A stretch of DNA of 39,019 nt from Prevotellaceae bacterium (GTDB lineage Bacteria; Bacteroidota; Bacteroidia; Bacteroidales; UBA932): positions 1-39,019 of the forward strand of contig JAITGD010000113.1 in the NCBI GenBank assembly GCA_031280885.1, given 5' to 3'. Shown one piece after another: positions 8,324 to 30,143 of the stretch (the stretch's first letter is position 1; every line of letters begins with the position of its first letter). The notes under the pieces were generated by a model that was given only the letters and a program-made list of their open reading frames with translations, ran no database searches and was not told the origin of the DNA. Both the position numbers and the translations under genes were made by a program.

Positions 8324-8393
8324 CGTGCTAAAAGACTATCAAACCAGCCTGCGTAGCCAATTCATAATTCATAATTCATAATTCATAATTCAT
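8324..8393. repeat. Dispersed repeat copy plus five AATTCAT heptamers ending in a stop codon
   Basis: Bases 8324-8357 repeat 2144-2177 (30 of 34 identical) and end in CCTGCGTAGC. Five perfect AATTCAT units follow at 8359-8393, and the stop codon of the DUF4998 gene (8393-8395) begins in the last one. Upstream, 8289-8323 carries ATCTGCGTGCATCCG and ATCTGCGTCATCCGCG, two related copies of another short repeat. Together with the preceding entries this accounts for the whole 584-bp gap; I find no gene in it. Confidence 0.75.
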
Positions 8394-9490: not shown

Positions 9491-9511
9491 TGTTTTATGT
9501 TTTAAATTGTG

Positions 9512-10705: not shown

Positions 10706-10738
10706 TATTTCTATGTTTTTCATTATTTCTATGTTTTA
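10703..10738. repeat. 18-bp tandem duplication over the start codon of the DUF5000 gene
   Basis: CATTATTTCTATGTTTTT (10703-10720) is repeated at 10721-10738 with one final base changed. On the minus strand each unit carries an ATG in the same frame, so the gene has two equivalent initiation regions 18 bp apart. Confidence 0.8.
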
Positions 10739-10756
10739 CTGTTGATTTTTCATTTG

Positions 10757-12664
10757 TCAGTATGAATCCCATCCCGGATTCTGTATCAGATTTGAGTTTC
10801 TGTCTAAGATTTCAAGTTTTATTGGCGCCAGATAATCGCGTTTCAAAAAACTTGGGGCGAATATAGTAAGCACCTTGTAATAGTCCTCGTTATTTTCGCC
10901 GCGTATGTTCCATCCTTTAACCGGACGGTTCATAAAATCTTCGGCTTCGTGCCAGCGCAGCATATCCCAGTAAGCCGGACCTTCAAAGGCAAATTCGTTG
11001 TAGCGTTCACGGTGGATGATTCTTCGCACACCGCTCTGCGTTTCTACCGTTTCGGGTTTCGTGGAATAGTTTATCCACGAGTACACAACGTCATCTAATT
11101 GTGCGCGACGACGGACTTCGTCTATCCAGTAGAAGACTTCGCTGTCGGGCGTGTTCTTGACCTCATTCAGCGCTTCGGCGTACATCAAGTACAGATCTGC
11201 CAGGCGGATATACGGAAAAGTATATCGATATGTCGAAAAACCCATATCGCTTACCGAGGTTTCGATGCTGACTAATTTTTTTGGAAGATAGCCTGTAATC
11301 GAGTATTTTTCGGCTGCAATCATTCCTCCTGCGCCGCCTTTTTTCATCTGTACGTATGCGGCAACGTCCTGGTCCTTGTAACCGTTTCCGTAAAGTACCG
11401 AGCCATCGAAGCAGAGCGAGGAATAGAATCGCATTTCGCGGTCGAAATTAAGTCGAGCAGTTGTGTATCCGTCGGTCATTAAATGTTGGTACTCGCCTCC
11501 CGATACCTGACGGGTCAGATAGCGATTTTCATAATCGTAAAACTTGTCCTCTTCAATCGGCACGCCGCGTTTTGAATAGAATCGTTCGACCACTTCCAGA
11601 GCAGGAGACATCATTGAGATGACACTGCTTCCGAGCTGGTTGTTATTTGTTCTCACAGCTGAAATGGCCTGGATTCCAAAGTTGTCTTTTGTCGAACCCC
11701 AGATTATTTCCTTGTTCCAGCGCTGGGTAACTGCTCCGCGAAGGTTCATCTTTGCTTTGGTGTTATTACTCAGCGAAACGTCGCCGGTGTGATAATACAG
11801 CGTATGTCCGGCCAAGTGAGCGCTTTTGATGGCAGTGTCGAGCGCTGCGGCGGCTTTTGTCCATTTACTTCTGTCCTCGTCGCGCGGGAAGAGATATTTA
11901 CCTCGATTATCCTTTATGTTGGCGTAGTATGGATTTCCGTTGAAAATAGGGCTTGCCATCAGCACAAGCGTTTTAGCTTTCAGGGCAAGAGCAATCGGTC
12001 GCGTTATTCGTCCCAGCTCGTTTGTTTGATTTTGAATGGTGAGAGGAAGATCCGGCGCGGCTTCGTCTAAAAGTTCAACTATATACTGCGCCACTTCTTC
12101 TACCGGTTCGCGATATACTTTCACTTCTTCCGGCGTGGCCGAAACGGGGATATTTTCGCGGATTATCGGCACAGGTCCGTACATGCGAAGGAGATAAAAA
12201 TGATAATAGGCTTTAAGAAATTTCACTTCGGCCACCCATCTTTTTTTCTCGTATTCTTCAAGATCGACAGGGCGATCGACATTGTCTAAAAAGATATTAC
12301 AGTCGCGCAGGGCAACGAAAAGATTTACTCCTCCGTTGCTTCCGTTCCAGTAATCCAGAGCCGGATTTGCAGCGCTGTGGCGTCCGCGTGCTATATTCCA
12401 TGCCGGCGGATTGGTTCCTCCCACGAAATCGAGTCCCTGGGTGGTGAACCAACATTCGCGACTTGACATCAGAGCCGGATTTCCGTTAAAATCTGCCGGA
12501 TTCGGCAAATACGAGTAGCAGGTAAAGAGCATTGTCTCGGTAGTGAGACGGCTGCGAAAAACATGGTCGATGGTTGGTATTTCGTCGGGAATGACGTCAA
12601 GAAAATTATTGCACGACAAGGTTATGGATGCATATACAAATAGAAGTATCAGTTTTGATTTCAT
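10757..12664 (-). CDS. SusD/RagB family starch-binding-type outer membrane lipoprotein
   Basis: This 635-residue lipoprotein starts MKSKLILLFVYASITLSC (Cys18) followed by NNFLDVIPDEIPT, the usual SusD N-terminus. TPR-like helices follow, including FLKAYYHFYLLRMYGPVPI near 150-168 and ALKAKTLVLMASPIFNGNP near 228-246. Near the C-terminus are PYIRLADLYLMYAEALNEV, DEVRRRAQL and RIIHRERYNEFAFEGPAYWDMLRW, which are diagnostic of the RagB/SusD family. It caps the SusC barrel and delivers bound oligosaccharide. It is 12 bp downstream of susC. It is longer than SusD of the starch system but within the range of mucin and plant-glycan SusD proteins. Glycan specificity cannot be read from sequence. Confidence 0.96.
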   Translation of the reverse strand: MKSKLILLFVYASITLSCNNFLDVIPDEIPTIDHVFRSRLTTETMLFTCYSYLPNPADFNGNPALMSSRECWFTTQGLDFVGGTNPPAWNIARGRHSAANPALDYWNGSNGGVNLFVALRDCNIFLDNVDRPVDLEEYEKKRWVAEVKFLKAYYHFYLLRMYGPVPIIRENIPVSATPEEVKVYREPVEEVAQYIVELLDEAAPDLPLTIQNQTNELGRITRPIALALKAKTLVLMASPIFNGNPYYANIKDNRGKYLFPRDEDRSKWTKAAAALDTAIKSAHLAGHTLYYHTGDVSLSNNTKAKMNLRGAVTQRWNKEIIWGSTKDNFGIQAISAVRTNNNQLGSSVISMMSPALEVVERFYSKRGVPIEEDKFYDYENRYLTRQVSGGEYQHLMTDGYTTARLNFDREMRFYSSLCFDGSVLYGNGYKDQDVAAYVQMKKGGAGGMIAAEKYSITGYLPKKLVSIETSVSDMGFSTYRYTFPYIRLADLYLMYAEALNEVKNTPDSEVFYWIDEVRRRAQLDDVVYSWINYSTKPETVETQSGVRRIIHRERYNEFAFEGPAYWDMLRWHEAEDFMNRPVKGWNIRGENNEDYYKVLTIFAPSFLKRDYLAPIKLEILDRNSNLIQNPGWDSY

Positions 12665-12676
12665 CTTTAATACGGT

Positions 12677-15600
12677 TTAAAAATTGACATTGATTCCTAA
12701 ATTAAAAACTCTCTGTACGGGATAGCCGAGACCATCGCCGGCCATTTCCGGATCCCAGAGTTTGAATTTGCTAAAAGTAAGCAGATTGTTTCCGCTAACG
12801 TAGATCCTGACAGCCGACATGCGCACTCTTTTGGTAAGATCTTTTGGTAGCGTGTATCCGATTTCGGCGGTTTTCAGACGCATAAAAGCTCCGTCGCGCA
12901 TGAACCAGGTGTTACGCTGAGTGTTATTATCGAGCTGATGGTCGGTAAGTCGTGGCCAGAAAGCGTGCGGGTCGCGATTATCTTCCGACCAGTGGCTATC
13001 GGCAATTACTTGCAGCAGCGCGTTCTGCGAACGCGATCCTCCGTCGGTGTCAAGGAAGGGAGACACGATGTTGGAATCGATCCAGAAAGAAGATCTTGCC
13101 GAACCCTGAAAGAAAGCCGAAAAATCGAAACCTTTATATCCGACAGAAAAGCCGAATCCGTACATGATTTCTGGGAAATTAGGGTAGCCTATCGGCACTT
13201 GATCGCGGTGATCTATCATATCGTCGCCGTTGATGTCCTTATATTTGATGTCGCCGGCGGCATATTCTCCATACTGTTGCACGGGAGAGTTTCGCACGTC
13301 GGCCTCGTCCACAAAAAGCCTCTCGGCAATCAGCCCGTATTCCTGACGAACGTTCTGTCCGATACGACTACGCTGGGGCGAATCAAGATAAGCCGGCTCT
13401 TCATATATCACATACCTGCTTTTAGCGTAAGTAAAGCTGCCGCGAGCCGAAACCCATAATCCGGAAGCAAAAGCCTGCTGGTAGTCAATCGAAGCGTCGA
13501 AGCCCGATCCGAAACTTTCGCCGATGTTGGAGTGCGGCCAGCTCTGCAAACCCATGGTAACGGGTACAGTTTCGCGTTTTTGAAGTATTCCTTTGCGAGT
13601 TTCGCGAAAATAGTCGGCCATGATTTCAATCTTGTCAAAAAGGCCAATTTCTATTCCGTAATTTTGTTTGTATGCTTTTTCCCAGGTGATTTCCGGGTCG
13701 GCGTAGCGCGAAATACTGACTCCATTTCGGCTGTATTGGAAGTTCGTGCCGAAACTCATTCCTCTTCCACTGTCGCTCAGGTTTACCTGCGACAGAAAAA
13801 AGAAACGGTCTTCTTCTGCCCCGATAGCGTCGTTTCCCACTAAACCGTAGGTAGCTTTGAATTTTACCTTCGATACGATTTTTTTCAGCGGTTCCCAGAA
13901 GCCTTCGTTCGATATGATATAACCGGCTCCTATCGACGGGAAGAATCCGAAACGCTCGTTCCGCGCAAATCTTTCCGAGCCGTTGTATCCGAAGTTACCT
14001 TCGACGAAATATCTGTCCTTGTAGCCGTAAGTCAGACGGCCGGCAAGTCCGATATTTCTGTACGGCAGCGAAAGCTGGAGGTTTCCCGTGTTCGCTTTCA
14101 GTTCATCGCGTCCGGTGATTACAAAAAGTCCGCTAACGGTGTGTCGCTCGGCGAAAGTTCGCCCGTACTGCACAGCGGCTTCGTAGTACATAGTGCTGTA
14201 AACGTCCTTACCTCCTTCGGATGTTTCGAGCGATTCTCTTGCGCCCTTTGTTTCGTCGTTAAGAGCCGTCAATCTGTACGTGTCGGTATATTTATCATAG
14301 CTGCCTACTTTATAATAAAAGGGGCTGTATTGCCGCTTTACATCGAAGTACGAATATCGAGTTGTGTTGAAAAGCGCCCTGACCGAAAGGCCTTTTGTAA
14401 TAAAATTCAAATCCTGTTTTATCTCCAACTGCGCAAGCACAAGAGTTTTGCTGTAATTCTTATAACCCTTCACCATTTCGGCATAAGGATTAATCCAGCC
14501 TCCGTCGGCGTTGCCGAAAAGTATATGCTTTACAAATTTATTTCTCTCGTCGGGAGGAAAATAAGCAGGAAACAAAACAGGATTCGTGCGCATAACAGAA
14601 TAGTACAAGTCCCTTCCTCCTTCGAGCGGGCCGGTGTAATTGTCGAAAGTTCCATGCAGGCGAACTATCATCTCGGTCGATTTCGTCATATTGATGTTGA
14701 TATTCGAGCGCAGCAGGTATTGTTTCAAATCTATGTTACTGTTGAAATTATTTCTCTTATCGACATTCAATAATCCGTTATCCTGATTTAACGAAGCTGC
14801 GATGTAGTATCGAGCAGCCTTCCCGCCTCCGCTGACATTGATGTTCAGACGTTGGTTCGAGGTGAAATCCTTAAAAAGAAGCTTGTTCCAGTCTGTAACC
14901 GGATAAACATACGGATTGCCCTTGCCGGTATTTGCTATTTTTTCGTTGCTGTATGGAATTATTCCCAGTGGATCTCTTGTACGCACAGCCTCGTTTCCCA
15001 GCAGCATGTAGGTTATGGGGTCGGCAAGCTCCAACTTTCTGACCGGAGCAGAGAAAGAGTTTTCAAATCTGACAGATAGTTTGACTTGTCCCTCCTCTCC
15101 TTCTTTTGTGGTTACGAGAATCACTCCGTTTGCTCCTCTTGCACCGTAAAGCGCCGTGGCGTTAGCGTCCTTCATCACCGAAAAGCTGGCGATATCGTCG
15201 GTATTGAGTTTTGCCAGGTCGTCGGTCGAAAGTTCCACACCGTCAATCAGAATCAGCGGGTTCTTTTTGCCGTTTCCGAAAGTTGTTACTCCGCGTATAA
15301 AAAAGTCGGCGTTATCGCGCCCCGGCTCGCCGCTGCGCTGATACGAGATTATGCCCGACATCCGACCGGCCAAAGCGGTAGTTAGATTGCTGCTTGGCAC
15401 TTTCAGTTCTGAGGGTTTGATAGTTGTAACGGCGGCCACCACGCTTTCGCGTTTCTGACGGCCAAAGGCAACCACCACTGCTTCGCCGAGTTCCGAAATT
15501 ACTTCTTCCATCACGATGGCGATAATTCGGCGATTGCCCACTTTCACATTCAAGGGCTTGTATCCCACAAAACTGAATTGCAGGACGGAGGTGTCGCTGG

Positions 15601-16126
15601 GTACAGTTACCGCAAATTCGCCGTTTTCGTCGGTCGAAGTTCCCACAGAACTTCCGCTCACCATCACGCTGACAAAAGGTAGCGGATTTCCCGAATAGTC
15701 CGACACGGTGCCGGTAACTTTGAAGGCTGCCGATTTTGCTGGCTGCGACCGTCCATTTTTCGAGCTTGTTTGGATGATGATTTGTTTGTCGCGGATTTTG
15801 TACGTCGTCTCTGAGCCTTTAAATACAGCGTCTAAGAGAACCGACAGTTCCACATCTTTTACCTTGATGCTTACTTTGCGGCTGAGGTCAATCTCGTCGG
15901 TATAAAAAAACGAGAAGCCGCTTTGCGTTTCTATACTGCTGATTACAGATTCAAGAGAAACGTTTTTCTCATCGAAGGTAAACTTTTTGCTTTGCGAATA
16001 TAATTCGCTCGGCACGAAGGCTAAAGCGCTTGTGAGCGCAAAGACACAGAGCGTTTTGACGGCTCGCGAAATTCTCCGCACTCGTTGTTTTGAGGGTATC
16101 CCTCCATACTTGTTAAATAATTCCAT
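12677..16126 (-). CDS. SusC/RagA family TonB-linked outer membrane transporter with STN domain
   Basis: From the ATG at 16126 the protein has 1149 residues; an upstream in-frame start at 16207 would add 27 residues without signal-peptide character. It shows an N-terminal signal region, an STN domain (FTFDEKNVSLESVISSIETQ to YKIRDKQIII) and a carboxypeptidase-regulatory-like domain (VTGTVSDYSGNPLPFVSVMV). The plug follows, with VVVAFGRQKRESVVAAV, DNADFFIRGVTTF, NPLILIDGVE and ALYGARGANGVILVTTK, and then a 22-strand barrel ending in NLGINVNF. It imports oligosaccharides with TonB energy in complex with SusD. The STN domain implies signalling to the FecR-type anti-sigma protein encoded just upstream. 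The gene pair and order are typical of host-glycan PULs. Confidence 0.96.
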   Translation of the reverse strand: MELFNKYGGIPSKQRVRRISRAVKTLCVFALTSALAFVPSELYSQSKKFTFDEKNVSLESVISSIETQSGFSFFYTDEIDLSRKVSIKVKDVELSVLLDAVFKGSETTYKIRDKQIIIQTSSKNGRSQPAKSAAFKVTGTVSDYSGNPLPFVSVMVSGSSVGTSTDENGEFAVTVPSDTSVLQFSFVGYKPLNVKVGNRRIIAIVMEEVISELGEAVVVAFGRQKRESVVAAVTTIKPSELKVPSSNLTTALAGRMSGIISYQRSGEPGRDNADFFIRGVTTFGNGKKNPLILIDGVELSTDDLAKLNTDDIASFSVMKDANATALYGARGANGVILVTTKEGEEGQVKLSVRFENSFSAPVRKLELADPITYMLLGNEAVRTRDPLGIIPYSNEKIANTGKGNPYVYPVTDWNKLLFKDFTSNQRLNINVSGGGKAARYYIAASLNQDNGLLNVDKRNNFNSNIDLKQYLLRSNININMTKSTEMIVRLHGTFDNYTGPLEGGRDLYYSVMRTNPVLFPAYFPPDERNKFVKHILFGNADGGWINPYAEMVKGYKNYSKTLVLAQLEIKQDLNFITKGLSVRALFNTTRYSYFDVKRQYSPFYYKVGSYDKYTDTYRLTALNDETKGARESLETSEGGKDVYSTMYYEAAVQYGRTFAERHTVSGLFVITGRDELKANTGNLQLSLPYRNIGLAGRLTYGYKDRYFVEGNFGYNGSERFARNERFGFFPSIGAGYIISNEGFWEPLKKIVSKVKFKATYGLVGNDAIGAEEDRFFFLSQVNLSDSGRGMSFGTNFQYSRNGVSISRYADPEITWEKAYKQNYGIEIGLFDKIEIMADYFRETRKGILQKRETVPVTMGLQSWPHSNIGESFGSGFDASIDYQQAFASGLWVSARGSFTYAKSRYVIYEEPAYLDSPQRSRIGQNVRQEYGLIAERLFVDEADVRNSPVQQYGEYAAGDIKYKDINGDDMIDHRDQVPIGYPNFPEIMYGFGFSVGYKGFDFSAFFQGSARSSFWIDSNIVSPFLDTDGGSRSQNALLQVIADSHWSEDNRDPHAFWPRLTDHQLDNNTQRNTWFMRDGAFMRLKTAEIGYTLPKDLTKRVRMSAVRIYVSGNNLLTFSKFKLWDPEMAGDGLGYPVQRVFNLGINVNF

Positions 16127-16186
16127 AAATTTGTCCGGTTTTTTAGTTGTAAAAATTTTATTAATTAATTTATTTAAAAAACTTTG

Positions 16187-16215
16187 GCAGGGAAATGTTT
16201 GCAGCATTTCTCTGC
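16187..16215 (-). terminator. Hairpin between fecR and susC, candidate terminator or attenuator
   Basis: GCAGGGAAATG (16187-16197) pairs with CATTTCTCTGC (16205-16215) over 11 bp with one G.T pair. In the minus direction it follows the fecR stop codon by 4 bp and is followed by CAAAGTTTTTT and more T-rich sequence. It could end fecR transcription or lower readthrough into susC. Confidence 0.55.
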
Positions 16216-16219
16216 TTTT

Positions 16220-17140
16220 TTACTTTATAAAGACTGTATCTGTTTTCATATCATATTCAAATAAAAGTCCTTCTACCATCACTTTCAGGATGCTTATCGG
16301 CGTATCGTCCAAGCTGAAAGTGCCGGTGATTCTTCTCTTGTCGGTAAGCATAGAGCCTTCGACGACAAATTTTATTCCGAAAGCCCGTTCCATCCGCTTG
16401 AACGCTTCCTCGACGGTGCTTTGCCTGAACAGCAGTTTGCCGTCCTTCCATGCGATATACTGTTCGCAGTTTACTTCGTTGATTACAGCGCTTTGGTTCT
16501 CCATATCAAAAGATAATTGCTGACCTGCGCGAAGTGTCGGCCCTTGAATGTCCGATTGATTTTTGTTGAATTTCACCGAGCCTTCCACCAGAGTAGTTAC
16601 TATTTCCTGCTCGTCGGGATACGCTCTGAGATTGAATTTTGTGCCAAGTACCCGCACGCTGCTCCGGCAAACATTAACTGTGAATGGACGCTCGGCGTCG
16701 TGCCGCACTTCAAAATACGCTTCTCCGATGAGTGTGATTTCGCGGGTTTTGCTTCCGAAATCATCCGTATAACTCAGTTGGCTGCCGACATTCAGCCATA
16801 CCGAACTTCCATCGGGCAAGGTAAACTGCTGACGTCCATTCGAGGCTACAAGTTCGTGAGTCGCCGTTGTTTTGCTTTCCGTCTGATGCCGAATATTCCT
16901 ATAACTCACCGTCAGCAGCAGAGCCAGAGTAGCCGCCACAGCAGCGTATTTCCACAAGAGCAAGCGCGGTTTTTTCTTTTCCGACGATTGCTGAATCCTT
17001 TCCCAGAGGCGACGAAATGAGTTTTCGGCGGAATATTTCGCCGAAGGGCCTTTGGTGCGGTATCTTATTCTGTCCAAAAGTTCTGACTCCTCTGTCGAAG
17101 CCTTGTTGTCTTCAAATTTTTTATCCTTAACGTCGTTCAT
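16220..17140 (-). CDS. FecR family anti-sigma factor
   Basis: This 306-residue inner-membrane protein has a short cytoplasmic N-terminal region (1-about 63), one transmembrane segment (WKYAAVAATLALLLTVSY, about 64-81) and a periplasmic FecR domain. The FecR domain contains RQQFTLPDGSSVWLNVGSQLSY, REITLIGEAYFEVRHDAERPF and VRVLGTKFNLRAY, and a DUF4974 domain follows (RITGTFSLDDTPISILKVMV). FecR holds an ECF sigma factor inactive until SusC, through its STN domain, reports substrate. In the usual arrangement a sigma gene lies directly upstream, but here the upstream neighbour is the divergent DUF4491 gene 100 bp away. Either the sigma factor is encoded elsewhere or the module is incomplete. Confidence 0.94.
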   Translation of the reverse strand: MNDVKDKKFEDNKASTEESELLDRIRYRTKGPSAKYSAENSFRRLWERIQQSSEKKKPRLLLWKYAAVAATLALLLTVSYRNIRHQTESKTTATHELVASNGRQQFTLPDGSSVWLNVGSQLSYTDDFGSKTREITLIGEAYFEVRHDAERPFTVNVCRSSVRVLGTKFNLRAYPDEQEIVTTLVEGSVKFNKNQSDIQGPTLRAGQQLSFDMENQSAVINEVNCEQYIAWKDGKLLFRQSTVEEAFKRMERAFGIKFVVEGSMLTDKRRITGTFSLDDTPISILKVMVEGLLFEYDMKTDTVFIK

Positions 17141-17572: not shown

Positions 17573-19021
17573 ATGAACATACAAAAAATTTTCACAACAG
17601 CGCTTTGTGGCACATCCACTTGTTTGTGCTTCGGACAAGATGCGCAATCGACTGAGCGGCCGAATATTATCTACATCATGGCCGACGATCTGGGATATGG
17701 CGATTTGGGCTGTTACGGTCAATCATTGATCAAAACCCCCAATATCGACCGTCTATCGAGTGAAGGCATGAGATTTACACAGTTTTATGCCGGATGTACG
17801 GTAAGCGCTCCGTCCCGCTCGTCGCTGGTTACAGGTTTGCACACAGGACACACGCCGATTCGCGGGAACAAAGATTTTCAAGGAGGCGACTATCCTCAGC
17901 CGGAAAATACCTATACCATAGGCAAAATGCTGCAAGCCGGCGGATATGCTACCGGATGTTTCGGCAAATGGGGACTGGGAGCGCCTCATACCGAAGGAGC
18001 GCCTCATAAACAAGGCTTTGACCGTTTCTTTGGATACAACAGTCAGGGGCTGGCACACCATTATTATCCTTATTATCTGTGGAATAATCAGGATACGCTT
18101 TGCTTGTCGGAAAACAAAGGCTTCAAAAAAGGCGTTTACGCGCCGGACACGATTCAGGCCGAAGCCATTCGCTTTATTCGCAACCATAAAGATCGACCGT
18201 TTTTTGCTTACCTCACTTACGTCATTCCTCACGCCGAGCTGGTTAATCCCGACGACAGCCTTGCCGCTATGTACAAGGGAAAGTTTCCGGAAACGCCTTA
18301 CAAAGGAGTGGACGATGGCGACATGTATCGAAAAGGCCCGTATGAAAGTTCACAACAGCCGAAAGCCGATTTTGCCGCCATGGTTGCCCGTCTGGACGCC
18401 TATGTGGGCGATATTTACAAGCTGTTGAAAGAGTTGAAATTAGACAAAAATACGATCATCGTCTTCACCAGCGACAACGGCCCGCATGTGGAAGGCGGCG
18501 CCGATCCGCATTTCTTTAAGAGTTACGGAGCTTTGCGCGGCGTGAAACGCGATCTCTACGAAGGCGGAATCCGCGTGCCTTTCGTTGTATGGTATCCGAA
18601 AAATGTAAAAGCCGGAACGGAAAGTCATCATGTAGCCACATTCTGGGACGTGATGCCAACTTTGGCAGCGCTGACCGGCACACAAGCGGCCGAAAATACC
18701 GACGGAATATCCTTCCTCCCTACGCTGACCGGACAGGGTAATCAAGTGCAACACAAATATTTGTACTGGGAATTTCACGAGCAAGGCGGGAAAGCGGCTG
18801 TAAGAAAAGGCGATTGGAAAGCCATTCTGTTCGACGCCGGCAATGCGGAAAAAAGACGTATGGAACTCTACGAGCTTTCAAACGACCTGCACGAAGACCA
18901 TAATGTAGCGCAACAGCATCCACAAATTGCTGCCGAAATGCTGCAATTAATGAAAGAAGCGCATGTCGATTCCGAAGCTTTTCCGTTCATAAAGACCTCA
19001 TTATTTGAACTTGGGAAATAA
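17573..19021 (+). CDS. Serine-type family S1 sulfatase, secreted
   Basis: This 482-residue sulfatase has a signal peptide (about 1-22) and the alkaline-phosphatase-like fold. Metal ligands are in MADDLGYGD (D38, D39). The active-site motif is S78-A-P-S-R82 within CTVSAPSRSSLVTG, so the formylglycine precursor is Ser, not Cys, and needs an anaerobic radical-SAM maturase (anSME type), which is not in this window. FTSDNGPH supplies the late Asp/Asn ligands, and HTGHTPIRGN and GKWGLG are typical of S1 subfamilies active on sulfated carbohydrates. It probably removes sulfate from glycans in the periplasm. It starts the plus-strand side opposite the fecR/SusCD locus, so it may serve the same substrate. 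The sulfated sugar and position cannot be told. Confidence 0.94.
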   Translation: MNIQKIFTTALCGTSTCLCFGQDAQSTERPNIIYIMADDLGYGDLGCYGQSLIKTPNIDRLSSEGMRFTQFYAGCTVSAPSRSSLVTGLHTGHTPIRGNKDFQGGDYPQPENTYTIGKMLQAGGYATGCFGKWGLGAPHTEGAPHKQGFDRFFGYNSQGLAHHYYPYYLWNNQDTLCLSENKGFKKGVYAPDTIQAEAIRFIRNHKDRPFFAYLTYVIPHAELVNPDDSLAAMYKGKFPETPYKGVDDGDMYRKGPYESSQQPKADFAAMVARLDAYVGDIYKLLKELKLDKNTIIVFTSDNGPHVEGGADPHFFKSYGALRGVKRDLYEGGIRVPFVVWYPKNVKAGTESHHVATFWDVMPTLAALTGTQAAENTDGISFLPTLTGQGNQVQHKYLYWEFHEQGGKAAVRKGDWKAILFDAGNAEKRRMELYELSNDLHEDHNVAQQHPQIAAEMLQLMKEAHVDSEAFPFIKTSLFELGK

Positions 19022-21974: not shown

Positions 21975-22046
21975 GGCCCCATAGTTCAAGGGATAGAACG
22001 GAAGTTTCCTAAACTTTAAATGCAGGTTCGAGTCCTGCTGGGGCTA
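21975..22046 (+). tRNA. tRNA-Arg (anticodon CCT)
   Basis: A complete cloverleaf can be drawn. The acceptor is GGCCCCA / TGGGGCT (first pair G-U), the D stem GTTC/GAAC, and the anticodon stem GAAGT/ACTTT with loop TTCCTAA, giving anticodon CCT. The T stem is GCAGG/CCTGC with loop TTCGAGT and the discriminator is A at 22046. CCA is not encoded, as the following bases read CATTTTTTT. The T-run directly after the gene could serve as a terminator. It decodes AGG. Confidence 0.93.
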
Positions 22047-22122
22047 CATTTTTTTATTGCAGATTTTTAGCTTGACGGCAGATGATTTGCATTGTCTATC
22101 AATGATTTTAGACAATCTCAAC

Positions 22123-22162
22123 GTCCAAAAGTCTAACAGTCTAACAGTCCAAAAGTCCAAAA
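22123..22162 (-). repeat. Five 8-bp units (GTCTAACA/GTCCAAAA) upstream of nqrA
   Basis: Exactly five octamers of the form GTCYAAMA cover 40 bp. Read on the minus strand they match the GGACGGTT/AGACGGTT octamers that lie between nqrA and nqrB, so nqrA is flanked by related arrays in opposite orientation. The rest of the 376-bp stretch 21937-22312 holds tRNA-Arg, promoter boxes and no gene. Confidence 0.75.
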
Positions 22163-22312: not shown

Positions 22313-23668
22313 ATGTCAAGAGTATTAAAATTTCGCAAAGGTCTTAACATCGAGTTAAAAGGAGCAGCCGAAAAAGTGCTGGTCAAGATTCCACACGCCG
22401 AGAGCTACGCCGTTAATCCGGCCGATTTCAAAGGTTTAACTCCGCGTCTCTGCGTCAAGCAGGGCGACAAAGTCAAGGCAGGCTCTCCGGTGTTTTTCGA
22501 CAAGTATGCGCCGGAAGTCGCATACGTTTCGCCGGTTGCCGGAACGGTATCGGCCATTAATCGCGGCGAACGCCGCAAACTGCTACAAGTGGTAATAAGT
22601 CCCGACACAGAGCAAACGGCGGAAACATACTCCATTACGCCCGAAATTACAGCAAGTCGAGACAAAATTATCGACCTGATGCTCAAGGCCGGATATTGGC
22701 CCTTCGTCAAGCAACGGCCTTATGGAATAGTTGCTAATCCGAAGGATAAACCTAAGGCAATCTTCGTGTCGGGCTTCGACACTGCGCCACTTACTCTCGA
22801 TATGGATTTTATCCTTTCGGGACAAATTGAAAACTTTCAGAAAGGTATCAACATCCTGGGGAAATTAACTGAGGGTAAGGTACATCTGGGCTTGAGCAAT
22901 GCTGATACAGGCTCGAAACTTCCGAAAATCACAGGAGCCGAAATCACCTTCTACGCCGGAAAACATCCGGCAGGAAACGTAGGCATACACATCCATCACA
23001 TCTCCCCAATTTCCAAAGGAGAAATAGTGTGGACTATTGACCCTCAACACGTTGCTATGCTTGGACATTTCTTTGCCACAGGTATTTATAACGCCGAAAA
23101 AATAGTTGCACTATGCGGTTCGGAAGTAAAACGTCCTCATTATCTAAGAATACTTTCCGGAACCAGCCTCGCCTCTTTCGGCGAACAGGTGGATCAGGAT
23201 AAAAAACGCCAAGCCAGATATATCAGCGGTAACGTATTGACCGGAAGCGATGTGGGCGCAAACGGATGGCTGGGATTCTACGACAATCGAATATCGATTA
23301 TCCCCGAAGGAAATTATCACGAATTTCTGGGCTGGGCTTTGCCGCGTTTCAAAAAATTCAGCACATCGAAATCCTATTTCTCGTGGCTGACTCCCAACAG
23401 AAAATACGAGCCAGATACCAACCTCAACGGTGGCGTGCGTGCTTTCGTGGTAACAAATCAATACGAAAAAGTGCTGCCAATGGACCTGTATCCCGTATAT
23501 CTGCTGAAAGCAATCCTCGCCGGCGATATCGATAAGATGGAACAGCTTGGAATTTACGAAGTAATCGAAGAAGATCTCGCTCTTTGCGAATTTGTTTGCA
23601 CCTCGAAAATCGAAGTACAAACGCTGCTTCGACAAGGTATCGAAATGATGATAAAAGAAATGAGCTAA
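22313..23668 (+). CDS. nqrA: Na+-translocating NADH:quinone reductase subunit A
   Basis: NqrA is the peripheral quinone-binding subunit of the sodium-pumping Nqr complex. From the ATG at 22313 the protein has 451 residues and starts MSRVLKFRKGLNIELKGAAEK, the usual N-terminus; an upstream in-frame ATG at 22205 lies at the promoter and is rejected. Family features include VYPAD-like spacing replaced by NPADFKGLTPRLCVKQGDKVKAG, YVSPVAGTVSAINRGERR, RPYGIVANP, ISVSGFDTAPL-like VSGFDTAPL, GKHPAGNVGIHIHHISP, and GALPRFKKFS-like LPRFKKFSTSKSYFSW. The length is normal. It is followed by an octamer array and nqrB. Confidence 0.95.
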   Translation: MSRVLKFRKGLNIELKGAAEKVLVKIPHAESYAVNPADFKGLTPRLCVKQGDKVKAGSPVFFDKYAPEVAYVSPVAGTVSAINRGERRKLLQVVISPDTEQTAETYSITPEITASRDKIIDLMLKAGYWPFVKQRPYGIVANPKDKPKAIFVSGFDTAPLTLDMDFILSGQIENFQKGINILGKLTEGKVHLGLSNADTGSKLPKITGAEITFYAGKHPAGNVGIHIHHISPISKGEIVWTIDPQHVAMLGHFFATGIYNAEKIVALCGSEVKRPHYLRILSGTSLASFGEQVDQDKKRQARYISGNVLTGSDVGANGWLGFYDNRISIIPEGNYHEFLGWALPRFKKFSTSKSYFSWLTPNRKYEPDTNLNGGVRAFVVTNQYEKVLPMDLYPVYLLKAILAGDIDKMEQLGIYEVIEEDLALCEFVCTSKIEVQTLLRQGIEMMIKEMS

Positions 23669-23670
23669 AT

Positions 23671-23734
23671 GGACGGTTGGACTGTTGGACTGTTGGACGG
23701 TTAGACGGTTGGACGGTTAGACGGTTGGACGGTT
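23671..23734 (+). repeat. Eight 8-bp units (GGACGGTT type) between nqrA and nqrB
   Basis: Eight consecutive octamers GGACGGTT, GGACTGTT and AGACGGTT fill 64 bp, starting 2 bp after the nqrA stop codon and ending 37 bp before nqrB. The array lengthens an intra-operon gap to 103 bp. It has no hairpin strong enough to be a terminator, so nqrB may still be read from the nqrA promoter. Confidence 0.8.
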
Positions 23735-23771
23735 GGATAATCAAGTGAATTAACAAAATTATTTAAACATA

Positions 23772-24956
23772 ATGAAATCTTTACGCAAATTGCTCGATAA
23801 AGCAAAACCCTCTTTTGAAGAAGGCGGGAAATTGAGCAAATTCCGGTCGGTATTCGACGGGTTTGAAACCTTTCTTTACGTGCCGAATACGGTTACGCGA
23901 TGCGGAAGTCATATACGCGACGCAATGGACATGAAACGCACCATGTCGGTGGTGGTACTTGCACTTGTTCCATGCCTGCTTTTCGGCATGTGGAACGCAG
24001 GTTATCAGCATTTTCTATCCATCGGCAATCCGCAGAGTTTATGCCCTACGTTTTGGTTCGGTTTCTGCAAGGTATTCCCCATAGTAGTAGTGTCTTACGT
24101 GGTAGGATTGGGCATAGAATTTGCTGTTGCACAAGTCCGCAAACACGAAATCAACGAAGGCTTTTTGGTTTCGGGTATGCTGATTCCCTTGGTCATGCCC
24201 GTTGATGTACCACTTTGGATGGTTGCCGTAGCTACAGCTTTCGCGGTGATCATCGGAAAAGAAATCTTCGGCGGAACGGGAATGAATATATGGAATCCGG
24301 CGTTGCTGGCTCGCGCCTTTGTCTTCTTTTCGTATCCTTCGCACATTTCGGGCGACAAGATTTGGGTGGCCGATCTGAGTAAAGGACAGGGAATAATCGA
24401 CGGATTTTCGGGAGCGACGCCTTTAGCCAAAGCCGCAGCAGCAAGCCCAGGCACAGCGATTGACCTTCCCTCAGCCTGCGATATGTTCTTCGGATTTATC
24501 CCCGGCTCGATAGGCGAAACCTCGAAATTAGCCATACTCATCGGCGCGGTGATACTCATCGCCACCGGCGTAGGAAGCTGGAAAATAATGCTATCCTGCA
24601 TAATCGGAACCCTGGCTACGGGCTATCTGTTCAACGTGCTGGGAGGCGACAATCCATACATGTCCTTGCCGCCTCATTATCACCTTCTGATGGGCGGTCT
24701 GGCTTTCGGTCTGGTATTTATGGCGACCGACCCCGTGTCCTCGTCGCAAACCGAAACAGGCAAATGGATTTATGGATTTCTGATAGGCCTTCTGGTAGTG
24801 GTGATACGCCTGTTCAATCCCGCGTATCCCGAAGGAACAATGCTGGTTATACTGCTGATGAACACCTTTGCACCGCTGATCGATTATTACGTAGTGGGAG
24901 CAAATATACGACGCAGACTGAAACGAGCTAAAGCAGCTCTAAGCGCAATAAAGTAA
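23772..24956 (+). CDS. nqrB: Na+-translocating NADH:quinone reductase subunit B
   Basis: NqrB is the large membrane subunit that carries covalent FMN and riboflavin and forms the sodium channel. The 394-residue protein has about ten membrane segments. The flavinylation motif S213-G-A-T216 in DGFSGATPLAK is intact. Other family features are RDAMDMKRTMS, GKEIFGGTGMNIWNPALLARAF, GGLAFGLVFMATDPVSSSQT and NPAYPEGTML. The N-terminal cytoplasmic stretch KAKPSFEEGGKLSKF is typical. The length matches the family. It is followed by nqrC after 21 bp. Confidence 0.97.
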   Translation: MKSLRKLLDKAKPSFEEGGKLSKFRSVFDGFETFLYVPNTVTRCGSHIRDAMDMKRTMSVVVLALVPCLLFGMWNAGYQHFLSIGNPQSLCPTFWFGFCKVFPIVVVSYVVGLGIEFAVAQVRKHEINEGFLVSGMLIPLVMPVDVPLWMVAVATAFAVIIGKEIFGGTGMNIWNPALLARAFVFFSYPSHISGDKIWVADLSKGQGIIDGFSGATPLAKAAAASPGTAIDLPSACDMFFGFIPGSIGETSKLAILIGAVILIATGVGSWKIMLSCIIGTLATGYLFNVLGGDNPYMSLPPHYHLLMGGLAFGLVFMATDPVSSSQTETGKWIYGFLIGLLVVVIRLFNPAYPEGTMLVILLMNTFAPLIDYYVVGANIRRRLKRAKAALSAIK

Positions 24957-24977
24957 TTACGACAAAAGATCAAAGTC

Positions 24978-25727
24978 ATGAAATTTAATACTAACAATAA
25001 CTTATACACGGTATTATATTCCTCCGCGATGGTTATAGTGGTGGCGGCGCTTCTTGCCTTCGCTTCCATTACCCTGAAAAAACCTCAGGAAAAAAACATC
25101 GAAATCGAAAAGAAAATGAACATCTTGTCCTCAGTCAATAAGGCTCAGGACATCGCCGGCGCATCCAACAAAAATGAATACGTCGAAAGCGAATATTCAA
25201 AATACATAATAGAATCGTTCTGCGTTAATCTCAAAGGTGATAGAACTGATGCTGACGCTTTTAACACCGACCTAAAAGCCGAATTGGAGAAATCCGAAGT
25301 CGATAGAAATTTTCCGGTTTTTGTGAACGACGATAAAGGCGCACGAAAATATATCTTCCCTGTGAGAGGAGCCGGACTTTGGGGTCCGATTTGGGGATAT
25401 GTAGCTTTAAATGATGATTTCAAAACAATCTACGGAGCAACCTTCGACCACAAAGGCGAAACTCCGGGGCTGGGCGCCGAAATCGCCGGAATCGCATTTC
25501 AAAAACAGTTCTCGGGTAAATCAATTTACGATGATTCAGATAATTTCGTAGGTATAATCGTAGAAAAACCCGGAGGAACGCCGGGCAATAAAAACACTGT
25601 GGACGGTATTTCAGGAGGAACTATCACAAGCAAAGCGTTGGAGAATATGGTTTTCAACTCATTGTCGAACTACAAAGCTTTTTTTCTTGCACAGAAAGCC
25701 CCTCTTATTACCGACACAATACAATGA
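24978..25727 (+). CDS. nqrC: Na+-translocating NADH:quinone reductase subunit C
   Basis: NqrC carries a covalently bound FMN on the periplasmic side, anchored by one N-terminal membrane helix (VLYSSAMVIVVAALLAFASITL, about 13-34). The 249-residue protein shows the FMN-binding domain with GAGLWGPIWGYVAL, FDHKGETPGLGAEIA and the flavinylation motif S212-G-G-T215 in DGISGGTITSKALENM. It is complete. Its TGA overlaps the ATG of the next gene by 4 bp (ATGA), which implies translational coupling, yet that gene encodes an ORF6N protein and not NqrD. Confidence 0.96.
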   Translation: MKFNTNNNLYTVLYSSAMVIVVAALLAFASITLKKPQEKNIEIEKKMNILSSVNKAQDIAGASNKNEYVESEYSKYIIESFCVNLKGDRTDADAFNTDLKAELEKSEVDRNFPVFVNDDKGARKYIFPVRGAGLWGPIWGYVALNDDFKTIYGATFDHKGETPGLGAEIAGIAFQKQFSGKSIYDDSDNFVGIIVEKPGGTPGNKNTVDGISGGTITSKALENMVFNSLSNYKAFFLAQKAPLITDTIQ

Positions 25728-26266
25728 GTGAAATGGTAAAATTCAGCGAGGTCGAAGAAAAGATTTTGACCCTGCGCAACCAGCAAGTGATTCTCGATAG
25801 CGATGTTGCGGTATTGTATGGCGTGGAAACGCGGGAAATCAATCAAGCACTAAAGAATAATCAGGAAAAATTTCCCGAAGGGTATGTTTTACAGACCTCT
25901 CAGGAAGAAAAAAATGAGCTTATCAAAAATTTTGATAACCCCAAAACAAAGTTCTCTCCCGCATTGCCAAAAGCATTCACCGAGAAGGGATTATACATGC
26001 TTGCCACCATACTCAAAAGCGATAAGGCCACACAAACTACCATAGCAATCGTAGAAACCTTCGCCAAAATACGTGAACTTGCTCGCACTGTTTCGGAATT
26101 ATCGGAAACCAACGAAGATTTCAAACAAAAATCGCTGATGCAAAAAGGCGGAGAAATTATTGCTGATATTTTGGACGACAGCTTGAAAACAACAGATACG
26201 GAAACAACAATTGAATTGAATTTTGCGCTAATGAGATTCAAACACACAATCAAACGAAAAACATAA
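25724..26266 (+). CDS. ORF6N domain protein in the place of nqrD
   Basis: This 180-residue protein begins with a clear ORF6N domain: EVEEKILTLRNQQVILDSDVAVLYGVETREINQALKNNQEKFPEGYVLQ, continuing to PKAFTEKGLYMLATILKSDKA (about 1-108). ORF6N is a phage- and mobile-element-linked DNA-binding domain related to the KilA-N/BRO group; bacterial copies are common in Bacteroidetes, with unknown function. The C-terminal part is helical (ELARTVSELSETNEDFKQK). It overlaps nqrC by 4 bp and is followed by the HyfB-like gene after 64 bp. Its presence here breaks the nqrABCDEF order and suggests insertion or rearrangement. Start alternatives are ATG at 25724 or 25733. Confidence 0.88.
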   Translation: MSEMVKFSEVEEKILTLRNQQVILDSDVAVLYGVETREINQALKNNQEKFPEGYVLQTSQEEKNELIKNFDNPKTKFSPALPKAFTEKGLYMLATILKSDKATQTTIAIVETFAKIRELARTVSELSETNEDFKQKSLMQKGGEIIADILDDSLKTTDTETTIELNFALMRFKHTIKRKT

Positions 26267-26330
26267 AACAGCTGGCTCAGGCGAAACCCTTGTAGAGGAA
26301 CTATTTGCGCGATAGTCGAATTAACAGACA

Positions 26331-28295
26331 ATGATTTTTATATTTATTCTACTCCTTTCGCCGGCCTTGTTTATCGTTCCGGCACACAAAAAAGGCAAAT
26401 TTGCCCTGATTCTTTTAGCAGCTGGAATCGTACAGACTTTCAGCATAATAACCCGTTTAGAAGCGGCGGCGCCCATTGACCTCAGCTATGATTTGGGAAT
26501 TATCAACCTCCGGCTATATATCGACGAACTTTCGGCGCTCTTTCTCGCACTGCTTAATGTAGTGGCAATTACAGCTTTATGGTATTCTAACGAATATCTC
26601 AAAACTTATATCAAAACAAAATCGGAAAGCGAACTTTCGCTGCACTTTTTGGCGTATATCTGGCTGTATGTGTCGATGACAGCGGTGATAACATTCCGCG
26701 ACACAGCGAGTTTCCTTCTCGCATGGGAATTAATGACCGGCGCCTCCTTTGTGCTTGTAGTTTTCGAGGGAGAAAAGCCCGACAAACTAAAAGCCGCCAT
26801 ACATTACTTGGTTCAAATGCATGTATGTCTTTTTCTGTTGATTGCCGGCTTCGCCATAGCCGAAAGCGCCAGCGACAAAACAGGCTTTGAGGCAGTAGCC
26901 GAATATTTTTCGACACGAAAGAATTTCCCTCTGTTTCTGATATTTCTGCTTGGATTTGGCTTCAAAGCAGGCTTCGTTCCGATGCACACCTGGCTGCCGG
27001 AGGTACATCCCACAGCTTCGGGAAACGTCAGTGGATTTATGTCCGGCGCAATCATAAAAATGGGTATCTACGGATTAATCAGAATAATAAGTTGCATTAA
27101 GACCGACCTCTTTCTCGTCGGCGCTACCCTGCTGTCACTTTCCTGTGTAACAGGTCTCTACGGAATAGCCATGGCCGCTGTACAGAAAGACATAAAAAAA
27201 CTGCTGGCCTATTCGAGTATCGAAAACATAGGAATCATAGGAATCGCTCTGAGCATCGGCATCTTAGGCGAATATTGGGATAATCCCGCTCTGAGCCTCG
27301 CCGGATACGCCGGAGCCTTGCTTCACACGTTTAATCACGCCTGTTTCAAGTCGATGCTCTTTTTTAGTGCAGGCTCGCTTTGCAAAGCCACGCACACACA
27401 ACGGATGGACAAAATGGGCGGAGCGGCTAAGGAAATGCCCTACACTGCGGCATTTTTCCTTCTCGGATCCGGAGCAATCTGCGCCTTGCCGCCACTCAGC
27501 GGCTTTGTGTCAGAGTTTCTTATATACAAAGGACTGTTTTCCAGCATCGGCGACGCGGGTTCAGTGCGCGCTTTTTTTCTGATGATAATAGCGCTGATAA
27601 TGGTCGTCATAGGAGGTTTGTCGATTTTGACCTTTACCAAGGCTTTCGGGATTCCCTTTCTTGGCCTCCCGCGCAGCCCGCAATCTTCGGGACTTTCGGA
27701 AAGCAAAGGTCTGTGGACGCCGCTGTTAATACCGGCTTTCTGCATAATTTTTGTCGGATTTGCGCCTTTTTTTGCTTTTGAACTGATTGCCCGCATCTCG
27801 TTCTGCGTGTCGATGGCCGACTCGCCAACGATTATCGCAATGAACGAATGTTCGACTAATCTGCGCAGCTTGAGCCTTGTATTCATGCTCTTTGCAGGGC
27901 TTATTGTCGGTATTCATCTCCTTCGCAGCAAACGTTTGGCAAAACGTCGCGTGGACTCATCGCCCACCTGGGGATGCGGATACACAGCGCCAAAGGCCAA
28001 AATGCAATATAGCTCTTCTTCATTTGTTAGTGATTTTGAACATTTAGCCAATCCCGTAACTCGCTATCGACGCGAAATAGAGCCTATTGCAGAAACTGAA
28101 ATTTTCCCCGACGAACGCAAATTCAAGGGAAAATCCGAAGATATAGTACATTCGCAGGTAAATATCCTGCAATCACGCATACAAAAAATACTCTCGCATC
28201 TGGCTATCTTCCAGACAGGTAGAATACAACACTATATTTCCTTTGCTCTCATTTTTATGGTGATTATCTTTGTGCTTAGCTGGATTATGCAATAG
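26331..28295 (+). CDS. HyfB/HycC-like proton-conducting membrane subunit (NuoL family)
   Basis: This 654-residue polytopic protein belongs to the NuoL/M/N-Mrp superfamily and is most like hydrogenase-4 component B. Conserved channel residues are visible: E133 in LLAWELMTGASF, K212 in GFGFKAGFVPMHTWLPEVHPTASG, K243 in GAIIKMGIYGL, and HTFNHACFKSMLFFSAGSL. The C-terminal TWGCGYTAPKAKMQYSSSSF is a HyfB hallmark. In energy-converting hydrogenase-type complexes such a subunit works with HyfC, E and F and hydrophilic subunits, none of which follow: the next gene is convergent GH110. It either belongs to a complex encoded elsewhere or is left over from a rearrangement that also removed nqrDEF. No frameshift is visible. 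Confidence 0.85.
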   Translation: MIFIFILLLSPALFIVPAHKKGKFALILLAAGIVQTFSIITRLEAAAPIDLSYDLGIINLRLYIDELSALFLALLNVVAITALWYSNEYLKTYIKTKSESELSLHFLAYIWLYVSMTAVITFRDTASFLLAWELMTGASFVLVVFEGEKPDKLKAAIHYLVQMHVCLFLLIAGFAIAESASDKTGFEAVAEYFSTRKNFPLFLIFLLGFGFKAGFVPMHTWLPEVHPTASGNVSGFMSGAIIKMGIYGLIRIISCIKTDLFLVGATLLSLSCVTGLYGIAMAAVQKDIKKLLAYSSIENIGIIGIALSIGILGEYWDNPALSLAGYAGALLHTFNHACFKSMLFFSAGSLCKATHTQRMDKMGGAAKEMPYTAAFFLLGSGAICALPPLSGFVSEFLIYKGLFSSIGDAGSVRAFFLMIIALIMVVIGGLSILTFTKAFGIPFLGLPRSPQSSGLSESKGLWTPLLIPAFCIIFVGFAPFFAFELIARISFCVSMADSPTIIAMNECSTNLRSLSLVFMLFAGLIVGIHLLRSKRLAKRRVDSSPTWGCGYTAPKAKMQYSSSSFVSDFEHLANPVTRYRREIEPIAETEIFPDERKFKGKSEDIVHSQVNILQSRIQKILSHLAIFQTGRIQHYISFALIFMVIIFVLSWIMQ

Positions 28296-28313
28296 TTATA
28301 CGGTGGTTATACA

Positions 28314-28351
28314 ATTGTTAGACGATTGTTAGACGATTGTGCAATGTCTAA
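28314..28351 (+). terminator. 11-mer repeat and imperfect hairpin after the HyfB-like gene
   Basis: ATTGTTAGACG is repeated at 28314-28324 and 28325-28335. TTAGACGATTG (28329-28339) can pair with CAATGTCTAA (28342-28351) with one bulged G. It resembles the octamer arrays around nqrA and lies between convergent genes, so it may act as a terminator. There is no T-run right after it. Confidence 0.4.
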
Positions 28352-28372: not shown

Positions 28373-28424
28373 CTGCGTAACCAATTAATCATTAATCATT
28401 ACTTGGTTCTTGAAATCCTGAATC
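28373..28424 (-). repeat. Composite dispersed repeat overlapping the 3' end of the GH110 gene
   Basis: On the minus strand this reads the 23-bp dispersed repeat (28424-28402, 21/23 identical to 8202-8224), then AATGATT heptamers, then GGTTACGCAG, the variant of the CTGCGTAGC box. The first two parts lie in the GH110 reading frame and encode its last nine or so residues and stop. Confidence 0.75.
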
Positions 28425-30143
28425 TCTCTTACAATGTTCGATTTTAAACGCCGGAAGACTATTTTTTTCATCCTCTGTTTTTTGCCATGTACTTTTTTCG
28501 ATGAGGTTGTTTTCAAAAATCAGGCCATCTACAAATTTTGCTTTGATTACCTGTGTTTCAAGCGTTTTGAATGTATTGTTTTCGATTCGGATATTTCGGT
28601 GAACCTGATGTTTTGGCGATTCTTCATGCACTTCGGGTTCGATAGATATGGCGTAGCTGTTACCGAGGATGTTATATCCGCAGGCATCGAATAGGTTTCC
28701 TCTGATTATGGCGTCGTTTACCGCTCCGGATTCGTACCAACTTCCTGCATCGCAAGCAATTAGAATACCATACATTCCGGTGCGATAAAACACATTGTTT
28801 TCTATCCTGATACTGCGAGGAGTAGTAACTAAAAGTCCGCGAGTACATGTCATTTCGAAGCGATTATTGCACACCTGAAGCGAAGGCGTCCATGTGAGAT
28901 TTTCTACGCAATAACCGGTGCTTACCTCCTTAGGAAGAGGCGATTCCAGCTCAATCAACATCTCGCGTTCCGAAACAAGTCGGGCTGTTTTTACCTTCGA
29001 TTTGCCCTTAGTCAAAAGCGCGGCAGAGTTTACAAAGCCAACAGTGTCGTTTTCATAAAAGGCTGCAAATCCGTAGGTTTGACCGTGCATAAATCGCACT
29101 TTGATCCGTGTAGGAGTTTGAATTTCTGTAATTTTCAAATAAGTTCCGTGTACGTTTACCGGATCATCGTGCAGACCTTTAAATCGGCATGAATCAATCA
29201 ATATCTTGCCTTTGCATCCCGAAAAGTGCATGCCGTCAGCAAAAGCTGCGATTGTCCGCCCCCTCGACGGCGTGATATTTACTCTGCGATATGTCAGATT
29301 TTCTGAGAATTGCGAGATTATTCCAAGACCGTGCATATAGTGCATATTTACGCCGTAGAGACGTATATTTTTTGATAGATTGACGAAAACGCCGACATGG
29401 TCGCGGTAAGGATCTCGTACTGTGAGTGTTTGTCCGGCCGCGTAGCCCGAATTTCTGAAATCGCCATCTATCCGCAATTTGAAGGGTTCAAGCTCAGTAA
29501 CAGATCCTTCGAGAATAGGATTCCAGCCTCTGTATTTTGCCGTTCCCTCTATCGTATCGGTCATAATTACATGATAACGAGGGATATTATAGCCTTCGCC
29601 ATACCAAAATAATTTACTGTCGATAATAGCGTATTTTGAATCCGGATGCACCGAAGCAATTAGATAATCAGAATTCACCTCAATCATAGAGAGTTCGCTC
29701 ATGCTCGGACGTTCAAAATCCACACTCAGATTGCGCATTTCGATGTTTTCGCAATGGTCAATGCCGATTGTAATCATCTTTCCATGAAAAACAAAGATAG
29801 AACCATTTCCCTCGACAGTCAAATTTTTGACGCCTTCGAATAAAAGTCCGATGTTTTTGATTTTCGATGGACATTCCTCTTCGGATGAAGTGTTTGAGAT
29901 AAAATACTCTCGTTTTTCTGTTTTTTCGTGCCAAAAATCGTATCTTCCTTTGGGAAACACAAGCGTGGCTCCGTTATTTTCGGATTTACAGCGCTCTATG
30001 GCTTTTTTTACCCCTTCGGTAGCGTCGATAAAAGAATTTGGAGCTACGCCGAAATCCCGCACATCTATCATCTTCTGCGACTGCGCGATTGATACCGCTC
30101 CTGCCGCAGCAAGAGCAAAAATCAGTTTAAAAATTGTATTCAT
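28392..30143 (-). CDS. GH110 family alpha-1,3-galactosidase, secreted
   Basis: GH110 enzymes release alpha-1,3-linked galactose, as in blood group B or linear alpha-Gal structures. The 583-residue protein has a signal peptide (about 1-22) and a right-handed parallel beta-helix. It matches characterised Bacteroides members in LVFPKGRYDFWHEKTEKREYFISNTS, LTVEGNGSIFVFHGKM, IEMRNLSVDFERPSMSE and GYAAGQTLTVRDPYRDHVGVF. The likely catalytic acids are D303 (FADGMHFSGC) and D326-D327 (GLHDDPVNVHG); the spacing of 23 equals that of the known catalytic Asp residues as I recall them. It is the last gene of the five-gene operon starting at 36768. The C-terminal tail SGFQEPSND is encoded by an intergenic repeat. 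Confidence 0.92.
   Translation of the reverse strand: MNTIFKLIFALAAAGAVSIAQSQKMIDVRDFGVAPNSFIDATEGVKKAIERCKSENNGATLVFPKGRYDFWHEKTEKREYFISNTSSEEECPSKIKNIGLLFEGVKNLTVEGNGSIFVFHGKMITIGIDHCENIEMRNLSVDFERPSMSELSMIEVNSDYLIASVHPDSKYAIIDSKLFWYGEGYNIPRYHVIMTDTIEGTAKYRGWNPILEGSVTELEPFKLRIDGDFRNSGYAAGQTLTVRDPYRDHVGVFVNLSKNIRLYGVNMHYMHGLGIISQFSENLTYRRVNITPSRGRTIAAFADGMHFSGCKGKILIDSCRFKGLHDDPVNVHGTYLKITEIQTPTRIKVRFMHGQTYGFAAFYENDTVGFVNSAALLTKGKSKVKTARLVSEREMLIELESPLPKEVSTGYCVENLTWTPSLQVCNNRFEMTCTRGLLVTTPRSIRIENNVFYRTGMYGILIACDAGSWYESGAVNDAIIRGNLFDACGYNILGNSYAISIEPEVHEESPKHQVHRNIRIENNTFKTLETQVIKAKFVDGLIFENNLIEKSTWQKTEDEKNSLPAFKIEHCKRDSGFQEPSND

Follow-up and report, generated by a model that had tools for sequence, protein, structure and literature searches.

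A complete Na+-NQR gene set encoded at two loci, and scattered energy-complex genes, in a draft Prevotellaceae genome

Where are the remaining genes of the Na+-pumping NADH:quinone oxidoreductase (Na+-NQR) in a genome whose nqr run stops after nqrC? We asked this of a 39,019-bp stretch of DNA (the window, an entire contig, C192) from the 2.66-Mb draft genome of a Prevotellaceae bacterium, a gut-type member of the Bacteroidales, here called G000 (212 contigs, completeness 89.06%, contamination 1.1%). In the window, nqrA, nqrB and nqrC are followed by an ORF6N-domain gene and a gene for a HyfB-like, antiporter-type membrane subunit. We found nqrD, nqrE and nqrF intact on another contig of the same genome, C4. 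Very probably, the Na+-NQR gene set of G000 is complete and physically split, encodes what is likely the ordinary enzyme, and is one case of a broader process in the genus by which operons come apart precisely between genes.

Two halves of one nqr gene set

Subunits were identified by NCBIfam family cut-offs and Pfam domain matches, and some neighbouring genes were named by eye. The five genes run head to tail with uninterrupted reading frames (22313-28295), the nqrC stop and the ORF6N start sharing an ATGA (25724-25727, a 4-bp overlap), and the gene 3' of the HyfB-like gene is convergent (28392-30143). A first-pass annotation of this DNA had described a run ending at nqrC, an intact nqrABC with both flavinylation motifs and an exact 4-bp overlap with an ORF6N gene; gene calls, above-cut-off matches to TIGR01936, TIGR01937 and TIGR01938 and the PF10543 match (Table 1) uphold this description. 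NqrB and NqrC carry the motifs SGAT and SGGT, which we take to be the covalent flavin threonine motifs, an identification made at the level of sequence motif. Read by eye, NqrC of same-genus relatives has TGGT where the window protein has SGGT.

A profile search of G000 for nqrD had a single hit that passed the family cut-off. It lies on contig C4, where nqrD is followed without a break by nqrE and nqrF, all three intact (C4:9192-11759 of 38,347 bp). On the 5' side of nqrD lie an aminopeptidase-like gene, then a 190-aa barrel-like gene (by eye; the barrel weakly by Pfam), and on the 3' side of nqrF a CPBP-like membrane protease gene (by eye). Both halves are away from contig ends, and nqrC is present in one copy. 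Loss of nqrDEF is thus ruled out, and the proposal of the first-pass annotation that nqrDEF had moved elsewhere agrees with what we found; the genome-wide search it had suggested also located hyf partner genes, on C23, C197, C172 and C79. As in the nqrABCDEF operon of Bacteroidetes, all six subunits NqrA-F are encoded, above cut-offs or with the expected domains, and 605 of the 610 columns invariant in relatives (defined on 16-20 relatives per subunit) are retained. Unlike in that operon, the genes lie at two places, ABC on C192 and DEF on C4.

The two halves also share a tree position. The NqrA+B+C tree placed G000 next to a sister clade made up of G001, G004 and G008 with support 0.909, and the NqrD+E+F tree gave the same placement with support 0.987. 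This agreement, which holds even where other genes place G000 differently, argues for a common history of both halves.

Table 1. Positions of the nqr genes and of the other features discussed
Feature	Contig	Position	Strand	Evidence or remark
nqrA	C192 (window)	22313-23668	+	TIGR01936, 468 bits (cut-off 321); retains 98 of 99 alignment columns invariant among 17 relatives
nqrB	C192 (window)	23772-24956	+	TIGR01937, 503 bits (cut-off 350); 138 of 138 invariant columns kept; SGAT motif
nqrC	C192 (window)	24978-25727	+	TIGR01938, 184 bits (cut-off 144); 38 of 39 invariant columns kept; SGGT motif
nqrD	C4	9192-9842		TIGR01939, 307 bits
nqrE	C4	9871-10488		Expected domain; contiguous with nqrD
nqrF	C4	10512-11759		PF00111, PF00970, PF00175 (2Fe-2S, FAD and NAD domains)
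ORF6N-domain gene	C192 (window)	25724-26266	+	PF10543, E 8e-27; read as a passenger in a new neighbourhood
HyfB-like gene, antiporter-type membrane subunit	C192 (window)	26331-28295	+	Proton_antipo_M, PF00361, E 1e-47
tRNA-Arg (CCT)	C192 (window)	21975-22047	+	Between fabH and nqrA, at the left edge of the nqrABC block
8-bp tandem array, GTCCAAAA type	C192 (window)	22123-22162		Tandem Repeats Finder (TRF); between tRNA-Arg and nqrA
8-bp tandem array, TGGACGGT, 8.5 copies	C192 (window)	23670-23737		TRF and repeat search; between nqrA and nqrB
Imperfect 11-bp and 22-bp tandem array	C192 (window)	28285-28340		TRF; directly past the HyfB-like gene

Elsewhere in the window, SusC- and SusD-like genes, a FecR-like regulator and two lipoprotein-like genes occupy 8393-17140, and a sulfatase-like gene (17573-19021) adjoins the SusC/SusD-like stretch (all by eye).

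Gene order in relatives and the scattering of other complexes

We searched 60 genomes including G000 and found nqrC in 51 (G000 and 50 relatives), and examined 40 of the relatives' nqrC loci: 11 from the same genus, 22 from the same family outside the genus and seven from the same order. In all 40, the first nqr gene past nqrC was nqrD, separated from it by no more than about 240 bp. The first-pass annotation had held that relatives with nqrD directly after nqrC, together with a lack of support for the present order, would speak against its reading; the relatives do have that arrangement, and the second part did not materialize. The six nqr genes form one uninterrupted run at all 7 order loci and at 21 of the 22 family loci; in G020, which departs from this, a PriA-like gene (by eye) follows nqrE, and nqrF is on a separate contig. 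Within the genus, G001, G002, G009 and G010 carry all six genes on one contig, and in G004, G007, G011 and G012 the nqr genes are contiguous up to the contig limits. The remaining three differ: in G008 two additional genes separate nqrB from nqrC; in G003 nqrD is followed by a peptidase-like gene, with nqrE-nqrF on another contig; and in G006 a different gene follows nqrD, with nqrE and nqrF sought in that genome and not found. Among the loci examined, only G000 is broken between nqrC and nqrD. The breaks in G003 and G006 (after nqrD), G008 (between nqrB and nqrC) and G020 (nqrF apart) are independent ones, and within the genus nqr is breaking at several places. For synteny of the nqr flanks within the genus there was one comparable pair only.

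The scattering in G000 extends well past nqr. Counting nqr, rnf, atp, V-ATPase, hyf and etf/bcd, 27 genes lie in 22 places. Four rnf genes each sit among unrelated genes (rnfD at the end of C89, which joins C210 through an exact 119-bp overlap, rnfG on C17, rnfE on C85 and rnfA on C3), and rnfB and rnfC are together on C107. In the same genus, rnfDGEA is contiguous in 10 of the 10 genomes with matches; G007 and G012, which are 65% and 62% complete, gave none. The F-ATPase genes located in G000 each stand alone (atpA on C22, atpB on C202, atpD on C19, atpG on C17 and atpH on C160), and G018 and G022 have an unbroken atp operon. In G001, G003, G004 and G008, the four other genus genomes that yielded each of atpA, atpB and atpF-atpH, these genes are on three contigs; the F-type gamma gene was not found in G002, G009, G010 or G019. 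The V-ATPase A and B genes are each alone in G000 and adjacent in G009 and G010. Similarly, G000 has etfB, etfA and bcd on three separate contigs, and in G018 they form one cluster with one extra ORF; in G002, G010 and G008 bcd lies elsewhere, with etfB and etfA adjacent in the first two and separated by one ORF in the third. We also observed that G000 carries both F-type and V-type ATPase genes (L289 7177-8496, L290 1072-2820, L239 1666-2592), that G005 has two full atpA-like matches (contigs C165 and C300) and that one contig of G010 (C157) holds two V-ATPase A/B pairs in opposite orientation.

The HyfB-like gene of the window takes part in the same pattern. The protein is full-length, as the first-pass annotation had stated in calling it a HyfB/NuoL-type channel, and has a PF00361 domain. 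Its best NCBIfam match is "hydrogenase 4 subunit B" at 442 bits, short of the 667-bit cut-off, so that we call it HyfB-like and not proven HyfB. Full-length relatives with 50-56% identity occur in 11 genomes. The subunit described as lone at this locus does have partner genes in G000: hyfC (C23), hyfE (C197), hyfF (C172) and a hyfG-like gene (C79) are present elsewhere, each on its own. Likewise, hyfB stands apart from the other hyf genes in the nine further members of the genus that have a close HyfB, and hyfBCEF are together in G019 and G035. The HyfG-like protein has 496 aa with fused 30-kDa and 49-kDa domains, and no CxxC pair was present in it. Taking this pattern to represent the four NiFe-ligating cysteines of the large subunit, the NiFe ligands are absent, and by that test a true NiFe hydrogenase is ruled out. 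The membrane set of Group 4 hydrogenases (antiporter-like and NuoH-like subunits) is represented by the window HyfB and by HyfC, HyfE and HyfF. In its HyfB-, HyfC-, HyfE- and HyfF-like subunits and fused 30/49-kDa subunit, G000 resembles Hyf and hydrogenase-like complexes lacking the NiFe cysteines, and it differs from hydrogenase 4 in a 49-kDa-type protein without CxxC and in hyf genes that are all apart. Judged from these sequences, the Hyf-like proteins may form a related ion-pumping complex. As a separate observation, seven genus relatives (L161, L192-L197) have hyfB followed by a phospholipase D/cardiolipin-synthase-like gene with overlapping ends (by eye), and in G000 such a gene lies near etfB instead (L286 7411-8883).

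Not every gene run is broken. G000 retains secE-nusG-rplKAJL-rpoB-rpoC, rpsL-rpsG-fusA with the S10-spc stretch, groES-groEL and yceD-plsX-fabH. rpoB and rpoC are together in G000 and G022 and parted in 3 of the 3 genus relatives in which rpoB was read, a comparison that covers four of the 13 genomes of the genus, G000 included. In G002 (L299, L301) and G010 (L300, L302) each of the two sits among other genes on a contig of its own, and in G008 (L298) a convergent gene follows rpoB and no rpoC was found. In same-strand runs and tight gaps, G000 was not clearly lower than G018, and the measure failed to separate the genomes. Genes in G000 have thus not been left isolated; re-sorting has given them new neighbours on the same strand.

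Explaining the split

If the two halves are parts of one enzyme, nqrA-nqrB-nqrC would be transcribed at the window locus, with the ORF6N and HyfB-like genes now downstream, and nqrD-nqrE-nqrF would be transcribed from C4. Assuming that the halves are co-expressed, the six products would most likely join in the membrane as an ordinary Na+-NQR. The split would have arisen on the branch leading to G000, with nqrABC as either the moved or the left-behind half. More broadly, the account with the best support is repeated rearrangement with weak gene loss, which would preserve complexes and not gene order; genes of a complex would end up alone between unrelated genes, still intact. Because G000 has new same-strand neighbours at nqrC-ORF6N and at gpmA-atpH-spoU, lone genes may borrow new promoters.

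Several points weigh against this account. The split is known from assembled contigs of a 212-contig draft that is 89% complete. Contig ends cut 4 of the 11 genus nqr loci, so that contiguity in the genus is seen only partly. Trees of NusG-RplK-RplA-RplJ-RpoB and of RnfD-G-E-A put G000 outside the other genus members tested. Finally, atpF was sought in G000 and not found, and the search for ATPase genes covered atpA, atpB, atpD, atpF, atpG and atpH of the F-type and A and B of the V-type.

A draft, metagenome-type assembly and the adjacency of nqrC and nqrD at every relative's locus examined are what an artefact would predict, with chimeric joins at nqrC-ORF6N and 5' of nqrD or with C4 stemming from another organism. 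Random chimeric joins would often cut genes, though, and the genes at the breaks are complete throughout the 22 places, which makes an artefact unlikely (the exceptions are the one-side neighbours of atpB and hyfG, which run off their contigs, and rnfD, which relies on the overlap). The 19-mers of 25500-26500 and those of the C4 junction do not recur elsewhere in the G000 contigs compared (about 0.3 of 2.66 Mb), the nqr halves share their tree position, and independently assembled relatives show other breaks. This evidence, although indirect and drawn from sequence comparison, is strong; we regard an artefact as very unlikely, in line with the doubt of the first-pass annotation about a crude assembly join within nqrC. 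Rather less probable still is that an ORF6N-type mobile element carried the rearrangement, as had also been proposed. An ORF6N gene does lie exactly at the break, overlapping nqrC, and its protein has weak relatives (31-42% identity) in four phage records. Against this, no integrase-, transposase- or recombinase-like gene was seen by eye among the window gene calls, no direct repeat flanks the nqrABC block, tRNA-Arg at its left edge included, and no ORF6N gene was seen by eye beside the other lone genes of G000. With neither repeats nor mobile genes around the block, and with the same kind of break elsewhere free of ORF6N, we rejected this explanation. The last proposal of the first-pass annotation was a different redox complex in which NqrABC works with the HyfB-like (Mrp/Hyf-like) channel. 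The genes are indeed adjacent and in the same direction, but nqrDEF and the hyf partners are elsewhere in G000, in each of the 11 relatives carrying a close HyfB, hyfB and nqrC lie on different contigs, and NqrA-C retain residues shared with complete operons. A hybrid enzyme is therefore rejected as scarcely credible.

What drives the dispersal is a further question, and recombination between short intergenic tandem arrays is one candidate. Counting arrays of at least three exact copies, G000 has 79 in 404 kb, 74 of them intergenic, with 7- and 8-bp units (AATTATG, AAAAGTCC, AAAGCAG); other genus members have 12 in 301 kb, and genomes outside the genus 11 in 891 kb. The density is about 20 per 100 kb in G000 against about 1 outside the genus, in stretches chosen around target genes save for seven arbitrary G000 contigs, which hold 12 arrays in 76 kb. 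Abundant as they are, arrays are not enriched at the breaks: in gaps of at least 40 bp they occur at 10 of 28 new junctions and 42 of 149 elsewhere (Fisher p 0.50), and an earlier, smaller count gave 9 of 22 and 36 of 128 (p 0.31). Furthermore, the overlapping genes at nqrC-ORF6N and atpH-spoU leave no space for an array, and 79 kb of G008, a genome whose atp, hyf and nqr genes are dispersed, contain no array of this kind. We consequently set the arrays aside as the cause, which we think unlikely.

More speculative than the split itself, and put forward tentatively, is the idea that the genus has a still-active process that breaks operons gene by gene while leaving the genes whole and working. 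Na+-NQR, Rnf, the F- and V-ATPases, Etf and, in some members, RpoB/RpoC would then be built from scattered genes, and the array-rich spaces of G000 may take part.

Known split operons and what the dispersal means

Chlamydial nqr cuts fall at other positions. There the split is a phylum-level trait, whereas here the break between nqrC and nqrD occurs in one genome and relatives in the genus break elsewhere or nowhere. Passages of PMC4014512 report the split nqr of Chlamydiae and an rnfBCDGEA order for Bacteroidetes. On that precedent, a single nqr operon is common and not defining for Na+-NQR, and the extent of the dispersal is the interesting part. For ATP synthase, passages of PMC5709465 state that it is not rare for atp genes to occupy two or more transcription units and that Bacteroidetes often have epsilon-beta apart from the other atp genes; with five located atp genes each alone, G000 goes beyond the dominant patterns named there. 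Among the papers that our literature searches listed, no title or abstract opening describes such dispersal in this group.

For annotation, the locus carries a warning: where a draft genome seems to hold a "lone" HyfB or to be "missing" nqrDEF, this may be a split gene set and not a new enzyme. Selection for supplying subunits in balance and co-translationally is strong and usually keeps the operons of obligate membrane complexes in one piece. In this genus, Nqr, Rnf, ATP synthase, Etf and even rpoBC are in various stages of break-up, which makes it a natural experiment on the purpose of operons. It offers a graded series for testing, with G018 intact, the genus partly broken and G000 the most broken.

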